Part shown: piece by piece, positions 2,135-6,949 of the stretch
How positions within the stretch are numbered: position 1 is the first letter of the stretch
Layout: each line of letters opens with the position of its first letter
Virus record (IMG/VR): IMGVR_UViG_3300043425_000595
Span: 1 to 21,581 of that record
Source of the DNA: a virus
Reading direction: 5' to 3' (one strand)
Length of the DNA stretch: 21,581 nt
The notes under the pieces: generated by a model
Database searches by the model: none
The model's input: only the letters and a program-made list of their open reading frames with translations
Told to the model about the DNA's origin: nothing
Translations under genes and position numbers: made by a program

Positions 2135-2343
2135 AAAATCCCCTTCAAATAGTCGTCGGTCACGCATTGGCTAACGCATTCAAGTTTTTGCAAAGCCACC
2201 TCAAGAGCACGCCTTAAGTCGTCAATCTCCTCCTGCATGCGTGCCTGTATCATTGAGTCGTTAACGATGCCTGTGTGTATATCGCAACGCTCAACCCATG
2301 TCGGGATGTGACGACGAGCTGAGATTTTTTTGTTTGATCTCAT
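2131..2343 (-). CDS. Small hypothetical coiled-coil protein
   Basis: A 70-residue protein with no recognised family. The N-terminus is basic (MRSNKKISARRH) and residues about 32-57 form a strongly helical, coiled-coil-like stretch (MQEEIDDLRRALEVALQKLE). It begins with an ATGA overlap with the alanine-repeat gene and ends in an ATGA overlap with the MazG-like gene, which is the main reason to regard it as real. No function can be proposed. Confidence 0.55.
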   Translation of the reverse strand: MRSNKKISARRHIPTWVERCDIHTGIVNDSMIQARMQEEIDDLRRALEVALQKLECVSQCVTDDYLKGIL

Positions 2344-2987
2344 TCCACCACCTCAGCTTTCCGTAAGACGGCACCAAACCTGCGGCGGAATTCTGCCGCT
2401 TGAGCGTCCCGCACTGCGTCCCACGCTGCGGCCCGCTCTGCGAAGCTTACTGCGACCCTAGTTGCGGCCCGCGCTGCGGCATTCGCTGCGTCCCACGCTG
2501 CATCCAACGCTGCATCCCTCGCTGCGTCACTAACTGCATACCACACTGCCGGATTCACCGCGGCATTCGCTGCGGCATGGGCTGCGTCCCACGCTACAGC
2601 ACTTTCTGCGGCCCGCGCTGCGGCATTGGCTGCGTCCCACGCTGCGTCCCGCGCTGCGGACCACGCTGCAAATAACTCATCATCAGTTGCGTCTCCGGTC
2701 GCGTATCGCTCTGCGACATCTAAAGCATTAATAGATCGTTGGTCTGGCATAAGGTGCTGGACTTGTCTTGCGCACCACACTGCAAACAACCGTGCGTCTC
2801 TGTCAATACCGTCTACTGTGTGCAAACACCATATCGCATCCTCGATACCATTGCTGTCTAAGATGGTTATGATTGATAGCGGTTCATCGTCTGATTTAGT
2901 TTTCTTAAGATTACGCAAAAGTTTTTTCCATCCATCAAAGCATGGTTGGTTAGTCCTAATCTTATTTAATGTCGTGTAGTAGGTCAT
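2340..2987 (-). CDS. Imm-5-like protein with long alanine tetrapeptide repeat
   Basis: A 215-residue protein in two parts. Residues 1-105 resemble the Imm-5-like domain seen in phage and bacterial hypothetical proteins, with SNGIEDAIWCLHTV, an FAVWCARQV helix and the linker ERYATGDATDDEL. Residues about 107-197 are a run of roughly 22 four-residue units of the type Ala-x-x-Ala (AWDA, ANAA, ARAA, ARDA), which would form a very long alanine-faced helix. The underlying DNA is a 12-bp repeat. The gene overlaps its neighbours on both sides by ATGA. Immunity-type function is known only by family resemblance; the repeat's role is unknown. Confidence 0.7.
   Translation of the reverse strand: MTYYTTLNKIRTNQPCFDGWKKLLRNLKKTKSDDEPLSIITILDSNGIEDAIWCLHTVDGIDRDARLFAVWCARQVQHLMPDQRSINALDVAERYATGDATDDELFAAWSAARDAAWDAANAAARAAESAVAWDAAHAAANAAVNPAVWYAVSDAARDAALDAAWDAANAAARAATRVAVSFAERAAAWDAVRDAQAAEFRRRFGAVLRKAEVVE
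2397..2669. repeat. Degenerate 12-bp tandem repeat encoding Ala-x-x-Ala units
   Basis: On the plus strand, units close to GCTGCGTCCCAC follow one another with 12-bp spacing. They encode the alanine tetrapeptide run of the Imm-5-like protein on the minus strand. Unit number is likely to vary between relatives through slippage or recombination. The same repeat creates a spurious Cys-rich frame on the plus strand. Confidence 0.8.
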
Positions 2988-5452: not shown

Positions 5453-5481
5453 AGTTTAACAGAACACAAACGCAAACGCAA
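5453..5481 (-). promoter_or_regulatory. PL-like promoter of the left early operon
   Basis: On the minus strand TTGCGT (5476-5481) and TAAACT (5453-5458) are 17 bases apart, about 33 bases before the first gene of the operon. Both boxes match only four of six. An AGAACAC heptamer at 5461-5467 lies in the spacer and recurs at 5519-5525 beside the opposite promoter, suggesting a shared operator half-site. Confidence 0.45.
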
Positions 5482-5525
5482 GCACTCTCTACACGTGCGC
5501 CAAACGGTGTCAATGTATAGAACAC

Positions 5526-5554
5526 TTGACTCAGACGCGATCGGCCTGTATAGT
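5526..5554 (+). promoter_or_regulatory. PR-like promoter of the Cro-like and replication genes
   Basis: TTGACT (5526-5531) and TATAGT (5549-5554) with a 17-base spacer make a strong sigma70-type promoter. The GTG of the YdaS-like gene is 27 bases past the -10. Directly upstream, GTGTC and AACAC (5507-5525) form a loose inverted repeat around a short AT-rich centre, a candidate operator. Confidence 0.75.
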
Positions 5555-5581
5555 AGTCTTGTGCTTAAAGTAGGGGGACAC

Positions 5582-5836
5582 GTGAACGAAAAAGACGAAA
5601 GCAAAGAGCACTTAAAGCGTGCAATAGATATAGCAGGCGGTTTTCAAAAATTTGGGCGGTTGATGACAGTCAATGGCCCAAAAGGTGTAACTAGGTGCTG
5701 TGTCCATTTGTGGCTTAAGCCTGGGAAAAAAGTCCCGGCTGAATACTGTCCTGATATTGAAAAAGCCACTGGTGTTCTGTGCGAACAAATCCGACCTGAT
5801 GTTAACTGGGCGGTTGTAAGGGGTGTCAAAAGTTAA
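5582..5836 (+). CDS. YdaS-type Cro-like transcriptional regulator
   Basis: An 84-residue protein with the YdaS/Cro-like helix-turn-helix layout: LKRAIDIAGGFQKFGRLM, a loop, then a recognition segment ending VHLWLKPGKKVPAEYCPDIEKATGVLCEQIRPDVNW. The ending (IEKATG followed by LRPD-like) is characteristic of YdaS regulators, which act as Cro in lambdoid prophages. The GTG start is chosen because AGGGGGA lies just upstream and because an earlier in-frame ATG at 5515 lies upstream of the promoter. As the first gene after the PR-like promoter it should bind the divergent operator region and repress early transcription. A CI partner was not found in the window. Confidence 0.8.
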   Translation: MNEKDESKEHLKRAIDIAGGFQKFGRLMTVNGPKGVTRCCVHLWLKPGKKVPAEYCPDIEKATGVLCEQIRPDVNWAVVRGVKS

Positions 5837-5879
5837 TTTAATTGATGCAAAACTGAGTTAATTTGTTTATAGTGTTACT

Positions 5880-5940
5880 AGACCCGGCTAGGTTGGAAGT
5901 CATGAGCCAACCGAAAAGCGAGCCTCCCGTCTGCCGGTCT
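5880..5940 (+). ncRNA. Structured leader RNA, C4-antisense-like in position
   Basis: A base-paired domain in the 240-base gap between the Cro-like gene and the replication initiator. AGAC(C)CGGC at 5880-5888 pairs with GCCGGTCT at 5933-5940, with one bulged C, enclosing a perfect 6-bp hairpin GGTTGG/CCAACC (5891-5896 with 5907-5912). A further 5-bp hairpin, TGCGC/GCGCA, follows at 5944-5961. The layout recalls C4 antisense RNA of phage P1 and the CI RNA of P4, which control the next gene through pairing. Assignment to the C4 family is inference and was not checked against a covariance model. Confidence 0.45.
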
Positions 5941-5979
5941 ACATGCGCCGTGAGAAGCGCAAAAGGCTGGTATCGATAC

Positions 5980-6076
5980 AGTCTCCATTGGGGACGGTCT
6001 TAGATACCGTTTTCATCACTCTATGAGTGCACCGGCCCGGTAATTCTCACACTAGGGCCGTCCACCAATGGGGACT
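5980..6076 (+). promoter_or_regulatory. Long RNA duplex covering the initiator ribosome site
   Basis: Bases 5980-6000 are complementary to 6055-6076 over 21 pairs, including four G-U pairs and a single bulged A at 6064. The 3' arm contains the ATG at 6068 and the GGGGA ribosome site at 6070-6074 that serves the ATG at 6080, so the folded form should block initiation. The 54-base loop holds two more hairpins: CACTC/GAGTG (6017-6029) and ACCGG/CCGGT (6031-6041). Opening could come from a competing fold, a trans-acting RNA, or translation of a short upstream frame at 5902-6003 that ends just after the 5' arm. Confidence 0.7.
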
Positions 6077-6079
6077 TTC

Positions 6080-6949
6080 ATGCCATGTAGATTGATCCGC
6101 GATGACATGCTCGAGAGCGAGCGCGTTCTGGCTCTGCCAGTTGAGGCGCGCTGGCTGTATGTCACCATCTTGCTATCAGCAGACGACCTTGGTCTGTTTG
6201 AGGCCACTGCGTTCAAGCTGGCCAGGCGCTCGGACATCAAAAGAGAGACCGGAGAGAGGCTGCTAACGATGCTGGCCGACTCCGATTTGGTCCGCCTGTA
6301 TGAGGTCAACGGCAAGCGTTACGGATTCGTTCCAAGGTTCCGCCAGCGCATCCAAATCAAGAACCTAAAGCACCCGGCGCCGCCTGATGCTCTAATGTGT
6401 GACGATGTAGACGCACTCAATAAAATCAAGCACTTAGCATCTAAAACAACCGTTGGGAAACCGTTGGATAACAGCTGCGCAACTGTTGGCCAACCGTCTG
6501 AAGCGAAAGCGAAAGCGAAACTAGAAGCGAAAGAACAACAAAAAGAAGAGACAGAAAAGACAAAACAACGCGCTACGCGCTCGCAGGCTGTCGCCTGCCC
6601 TGTTGGTGTCGGTCAGCAGGTCTGGGCTGACTGGCTTCAGCTTCGCAAAGTCAAGAAAGCGCCGGTCACTGAGTCGGCCTTGGCTGGCATCGAGAGGGAG
6701 GCAAAAGCAGCTGGCATGAGCCTGCAAGACGCGATGGCCTATAGCTGCGCGAGAGGATGGGCCGGTTTTAAGGCGGAGTGGATGCAATCCGCAGCACAAA
6801 CGCAGTACGCAAAACAGCCGACAAGGAGATCAATCCATGACGAACGAGCAGACACAATCCGCGCACTTACCGGCAGAGACCGCCAGCCATCAGGCGAGAT
6901 CATCGACATCGGGCCAGATCCCACAAGCTTGGATTGGTCGCCTTTTTGA
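6080..6949 (+). CDS. Phage replication initiator (lambda O-like role)
   Basis: A 289-residue protein with a winged-helix N-terminal domain (residues about 4-95: LIRDDMLESERVLALPVEARWLYVTILLSADDLGLFEA, then LARRSDI and VRLYEVNGKRYGFVPRF), a charged repetitive linker (141-163, EAKAKAKLEAKEQQKEE), and a C-terminal region (about 181-235) with VWADWLQLRK and GWAGFKAEW. The tail SIHDERADTIRALTGR resembles endings of other phage replication proteins. It likely binds the origin encoded by its own linker and loads the P-like partner. The ATG at 6080 is preferred over 6068 for its GGGGA site. Its start is inside the leader duplex, so translation is probably regulated. The last 113 bases overlap the next gene. 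Confidence 0.75.
   Translation: MPCRLIRDDMLESERVLALPVEARWLYVTILLSADDLGLFEATAFKLARRSDIKRETGERLLTMLADSDLVRLYEVNGKRYGFVPRFRQRIQIKNLKHPAPPDALMCDDVDALNKIKHLASKTTVGKPLDNSCATVGQPSEAKAKAKLEAKEQQKEETEKTKQRATRSQAVACPVGVGQQVWADWLQLRKVKKAPVTESALAGIEREAKAAGMSLQDAMAYSCARGWAGFKAEWMQSAAQTQYAKQPTRRSIHDERADTIRALTGRDRQPSGEIIDIGPDPTSLDWSPF
6448..6571 (+). other. Probable replication origin: iterons plus purine-rich tract
   Basis: Five consecutive 11-bp units begin at 6448, 6459, 6470, 6481 and 6492, each opening with AAC; the first two share AACCGTTGG and the others match it in six to eight of nine positions. They are followed by hexamers GCGAAA (6503-6535) and a purine-strand-biased A-rich tract to about 6571, then a perfect 6-bp hairpin GCAGGC/GCCTGC (6583-6598). 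Iterons inside the initiator gene followed by an easily melted tract is the layout of lambda ori in gene O. An 11-bp period does not follow codons, so a DNA-level role is likely. Confidence 0.6.

Follow-up and report, generated by a model that had tools for sequence, protein, structure and literature searches.

The replication step of phages is usually described as being under the control of repressor and Cro. The window analyzed here, which is the whole 21,581-nucleotide stretch of the IMG/VR virus record IMGVR_UViG_3300043425_000595, raises the question of whether this step can also be controlled at the RNA level, in the leader that separates a YdaS/Cro-like gene from the gene of an O-like replication initiator (Table 1). 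The original prediction had noticed in this leader a 21-bp RNA duplex, with one bulge and four G-U pairs, that hides the start of the initiator, and took it as a sign of such control.

Structure of the leader RNA

The duplex, named stem B, is real and has a single bulge (A6064), although it consists of 24 pairs (5980-5991/6065-6076 and 5992-6003/6052-6063) rather than 21 and includes three G-U pairs rather than four. Folding of nucleotides 5970 to 6090 yielded stem B in both the minimum free energy and the centroid structure (−51.6 kcal/mol, z = −6.4) and none of 200 dinucleotide shuffles was equally stable; the stem was still present when it was folded within the 284-nt context of nucleotides 5837 to 6120. 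The shuffles, together with the covariation described below, rule out a chance hairpin. The ATG at 6068 and the GGGGA Shine-Dalgarno (SD) sequence of the initiator are located as had been claimed, and the SD lies in the 3′ arm of the lower half of the stem. Its predicted probability of being unpaired was 0.000 in the window and did not exceed 0.009 in any of the 30 full-length copies of the structure. When the stretch from the SD to the start codon was forced to remain single stranded, the minimum energy predicted was −45.0 kcal/mol, compared to −64.0 kcal/mol without this constraint. As judged from the sequences, translation of the initiator almost certainly starts at the ATG at 6080 and not at that at 6068, because the relatives of this initiator have their N terminus, M-P-N/C-R-L-I-R, at precisely the former codon; the ATG at 6068 is not conserved and is missing from other copies.

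The picture of a duplex, while correct, was incomplete in that stem B is just half of a 132-nt pseudoknotted RNA element with a competing fold. At the 5′ end of this element is the hairpin P0, whose first pair varies (GC, AU or GU) and which provides, from its loop, the 5′ strand of PK1, an H-type pseudoknot that crosses stem B. A second helix, P3, also crosses stem B, and nucleotides 5981-5995 within the 5′ arm of stem B have an alternative use in the local hairpin P5. The helix P2 was seen in folds of truncated transcripts and is paired in 98.3% of the cells of the alignment with little covariation; its sequence variation is too small for it to be considered independently proven. A covariance model of the element gave the window copy a score of 137 bits (E = 1.5e-33), and the members searched scored 106-140 bits.

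Table 1. Coordinates in the window of the features of the initiator leader and the adjacent genes.
Feature	Position	Strand	Remarks
YdaS/Cro-like regulator, upstream gene	5582-5836	+	PF15943, 4.4e-15
Likely −10 box of the leader promoter, TATAGT	5868-5873	+	from sequence; no clear −35
int-alpA-like RNA (RF02996), second leader module	5881-5955	+	23.6 bits; gathering score 35.8
Whole conserved element, 132 nt	5945-6076	+	3′ end at initiator SD; 30 distinct homologues aligned
P0, 5′ hairpin	5945-5960	+	GCGC (5945-5948)/GCGC (5957-5960); 100% of cells paired
PK1, 5′ strand, GTGAGAA	5950-5956	+	7-nt loop segment; pairs with TTCTCAC 6044-6050
P3, 5′ strand, GGCTGG	5965-5970	+	pairs with CCGGCC 6032-6037; crosses stem B
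P2, 5′ strand, GGTATC	5969-5974	+	pairs with GATACC 6003-6008; alternative helix
Stem B, 5′ arm	5980-6003	+	originally noticed duplex, extended
P6, 5′ strand, TACCG	6005-6009	+	pairs with CGGTA 6038-6042; inside stem B; 97.3% paired
P4, apical hairpin, CACTC-TAT-GAGTG	6017-6029	+	inside stem B; hairpin here in 30/30 sequences
P3, 3′ strand, CCGGCC	6032-6037	+	pairs with 5965-5970
PK1, 3′ strand, TTCTCAC	6044-6050	+	covariation
Stem B, 3′ arm	6052-6076	+	contains bulged A6064 and SD 6070-6074
SD, GGGGA	6070-6074	+	buried by lower stem B
Replication initiator, O-like	6080-6949	+	PHROG 678 (replication initiation O-like), 4e-17

Covariation and distribution of the element

Pattern scans found the element in about 50 IMG/VR contigs of uncultivated phages, with 30 distinct sequences. 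One clearly divergent copy (L007, contig 3300043395_002453) precedes a different initiator gene and has compensating changes in the duplex as well as in two further helices. When the 30 sequences were aligned, 98.2% of the cells of P0, PK1, stem B and P6 were paired and both sides had changed at 16 pairs (89 cells), a result matched by no shuffle; sliding the partners along the alignment lowered the pairing to about 40%. Stem B by itself was 97.6% paired, with both sides changed in 10 of its 24 pairs, and PK1 was 99.5% paired, with both sides changed in five of seven. P3, which was aligned separately and is interrupted in L095-L097, was 94.4% paired, versus a mean of 63.8% and a maximum of 75.6% after strands were swapped between sequences. 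We also applied a tree-aware test of our own, similar to R-scape, in which substitutions are re-placed on the tree (60 simulated alignments, with coarse E-values). Just three of 7,021 column pairs reached E < 0.05, one each in PK1 (E < 1/60), P3 (E = 0.017) and the SD half of stem B. The covariation, whose lack in relatives would have refuted the original idea, is strong and includes the pairs that hold the SD.

Among the pairs of the element G-U combinations outnumber A-C by 144 to 11, and it is therefore the + strand RNA that is under selection. This bias and the fixed position of the SD disfavor a structure that acts at the DNA level, such as a cruciform or an origin. Adenines predominate among the unpaired letters with the highest conservation, and the bulged A of stem B is one of these (28 of 30 sequences, G in the other two). 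Conservation of sequence is partly due to the search patterns that were used to collect the copies; covariation is not.

A further scan of IMG/VR with other conserved letters gave no true new copy (the candidate L138 lacks the fold), and for this collection the set looks near saturation at the level of similarity used. Comparison to Rfam 15 gave no match at the gathering score for the window, none at E up to 10 for the element and none at E up to 1 for six of its divergent relatives; a known Rfam RNA is thus ruled out as the identity of nucleotides 5945-6076, as no family reached the gathering score. The element was not found by blastn among named phages and plasmids and is absent near the initiator gene of four named phages with a related initiator, while a strict pattern scan of bacterial genomes produced 20 chance matches, none of them with the fold. 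Low-sensitivity scans with the model were empty for 399 genomes from the order of a Pusillimonas genome and for 369 from the class of a Gammaproteobacteria MAG, and carry little weight because only 8-9 candidates were scored per genome. No description of the element was found in the open-access literature.

Organization of the leader and the replication operons

Wherever enough downstream sequence exists the element directly precedes the first gene of the replication operon, and its 3′ end is always at the SD of that gene. The first gene codes for an O-like initiator in the window and for initiators of the DUF1376 or primosomal type, the KRPSFQF type or the HTH_36 type in other phages; further operons start with a small gene (HNH, GIY-YIG or an ORF of 73-80 amino acids) that is followed by the initiator. 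In L108, L113, L072 and L078 a GIY-YIG or HNH endonuclease gene is inserted first in the operon, directly behind the element. Several initiators have in common an O-like C-terminal domain (PHROG 678) and differ in their N-terminal domains (O-like, DUF1376, HTH_36 or KRPSFQF), an arrangement in the window and its relatives that can be considered domain swapping behind a common leader RNA. Neither L069 nor L074 has an initiator that matches PHROG 678. Halfway through the initiator gene of the window, at nucleotides 6448-6535, there are short direct repeats (GAAGCGAAAG and AACCGTTGG, each present twice), which by comparison with lambda O are a candidate origin of replication. Elsewhere in the window (2340-2987, − strand), a predicted protein carries repeats that are rich in alanine and of the AWDAANAAARAA type.

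The location between a Cro-like gene and the initiator, part of the original prediction, holds for the window but does not extend to all relatives, some of which have a gene other than a Cro-like one upstream. In L071, L077, L102, L110, L111 and L114 the sequence 5′ of the element codes for a short DUF1376-like protein (103-119 amino acids), so that these phages have a small initiator-like protein encoded ahead of the full-length one; in L071, L110, L111 and L114 its gene is preceded by a Cro-like gene. The YdaS/Cro-like gene of the window has a promoter-like TTGACT-17-TATAGT upstream (5526-5554).

A promoter-like site is usually found 5′ of the element (mean score 10.4, versus 8.0 in shuffles), with the −10 box ending 6-8 nt before P0, and therefore the element would in the usual case be the whole 5′ leader. 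The TATAGT that likely serves the leader of the window was not picked up by a consensus promoter scan; the same hexamer is found 7 nt before P0 in L003, L007 and L062, which have the element without the int-alpA-like RNA. The predicted start of transcription of the initiator leader is also where this latter RNA begins, and the match overlaps P0 at its own unpaired tail. It covers the full model length in the window, in L001 (2814-2888, 26.2 bits) and in L006 (2503-2578, 31.2 bits), in no case reaching the gathering score; it is related-looking to int-alpA RNA and not a formal member of RF02996. The order promoter, int-alpA-like RNA, element is present in the window, L001, L059 and L060 (the last two by sequence likeness), while in L006 the int-alpA-like RNA alone is the leader of a DUF1376-type initiator. 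On the basis of sequence comparison only, the two RNAs have the appearance of interchangeable modules in a single leader slot, which in this phage group can be filled by a relative of int-alpA. They are nonetheless separate, the int-alpA-like RNA being an upstream module with no structure in common with nucleotides 5945-6076.

A putative translational switch

What is observed are the helices, their covariation and their location, which covers the SD and precedes replication genes; by virtue of this covariation and position RNA-level control of the initiator, as first proposed, is well supported on comparative grounds. Repression of translation is an inference from the comparative evidence alone, and so is the direction of the effect. 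RNAs ending before the 3′ arm of stem B were predicted to adopt another fold, which includes PK1 in 28 of 30 cases, and as long as this arm has not been synthesized the 5′ half forms the alternative helices P2 and P5. The linker between P3 and stem B has 4-12 nt, far too short to span a 24-bp helix, and hence P3 and lower stem B seem to be mutually exclusive, as inferred from this geometry. Since P3 would be incompatible with the SD half of stem B, a translational on/off switch is the best reading: we consider it probable, in the absence of any experiment, that the element, located in the 5′ leader of phage replication operons, switches translation in cis in response to a trigger that has not been identified. 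In the OFF state stem B would be closed, burying the SD of the first gene and blocking initiation. In the ON state the P0 loop would pair downstream as PK1 and the adjacent strand would form P3, which would use up the linker needed to close lower stem B and so free the SD. The choice may be set during transcription and then shifted by the trigger, for which a host protein factor, a metabolite or other ligand, a small RNA and folding kinetics are candidates. Nested-fold energies, which do not include the pseudoknots, were about −56 kcal/mol for the closed form and −29 kcal/mol for the alternative; the closed form is far more stable, and therefore the ON state would need help or kinetics.

One form of help that we can suggest only tentatively is a ligand. 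The element would then be a phage-specific riboswitch class in which the double-pseudoknot core and the conserved unpaired adenines bind a host metabolite or alarmone, releasing the initiator SD; such ligand binding is hypothetical. A conserved structured domain coupled to an SD expression platform, as expected of a riboswitch, is present, and pseudoknotted translational riboswitches likewise have a conserved pseudoknotted core and unpaired adenines beside an SD-sequestering stem. The element differs from them in having no known ligand or Rfam match and in preceding replication rather than metabolic genes.

It is also possible, without being likely, that no ligand is necessary and that the element is a kinetic timer, in which the nascent RNA exposes the SD briefly before stem B closes for good, allowing few initiator molecules per transcript. 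The prefix folds, in which stem B replaces other helices once the 3′ arm is present, agree with this, and there is a precedent in the leader of the MS2 maturation gene, in which a transient fold precedes a stable SD-hiding one (PMC6733600), albeit in an RNA phage genome and with another fold and sequence. A timer alone leaves unexplained why two crossing helices, PK1 and P3, were selected and why unpaired adenines are conserved.

Phage leaders, for example that of lambda N, are among the targets of RNase III, which cleaves double-stranded RNA about two turns long. The 24 bp of stem B would suit this enzyme, whose cleavage could free the SD and couple replication to host growth. We find this unlikely, as 28 of 30 copies retain the bulged A, an interruption of the stem, and PK1 and P3 are left unexplained.

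Pseudoknots control repZ or repA in IncI, IncB and IncL/M plasmids such as ColIb-P9. As far as can be gathered from titles cited in PMC10724649, ColIb-P9 repZ is a precedent for the activation of a replication initiator by a pseudoknot, in which a 5′ hairpin uses its loop to pair with a segment close to the start of the initiator, a structure covers this start and replication is the target. The element has the same kind of loop pairing, and PK1 covaries; the pairing is conserved and may, by analogy, be needed for initiator translation. In contrast to ColIb-P9, it has a different sequence and architecture, a 24-bp SD stem and a second crossing helix, belongs to a phage rather than a plasmid operon, and no leader peptide or antisense promoter was seen. 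The logic suggested by those titles would permit a small antisense or trans RNA to occupy the P0 loop in competition with PK1, in the manner of the control of plasmid copy number. This is quite improbable, since no antisense sigma70-like site was detected at 5480-6300 (in a scan blind to other promoter types) and the P0 loop differs among phages.

That the leader acts on transcription, for instance as a put-like antiterminator, and covers the SD incidentally would fit its usual start at the predicted transcription start and its place at the head of a long operon; it is very doubtful given the covariation of the SD-bearing pairs themselves and the invariable position of the SD at the end of the element. 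Autoregulation by binding of the initiator to its own leader, through the C-terminal domain in which several different initiators match PHROG 678, is hardly credible when the first product of some operons is an HNH, GIY-YIG or small protein and the L069 and L074 initiators lack that match.

Whichever trigger acts on the putative translational switch, the element adds a conserved structured RNA family without an Rfam match at the gate of phage DNA replication, and its function can be tested with a simple reporter. If the timer were true, it would show how the dose of an initiator can be fixed per transcript. Should the riboswitch reading be correct, phage replication would be timed to the state of the host without a protein regulator, and sensing by the element would represent a compact, testable decision device common to phages whose initiators differ in their N-terminal domains.
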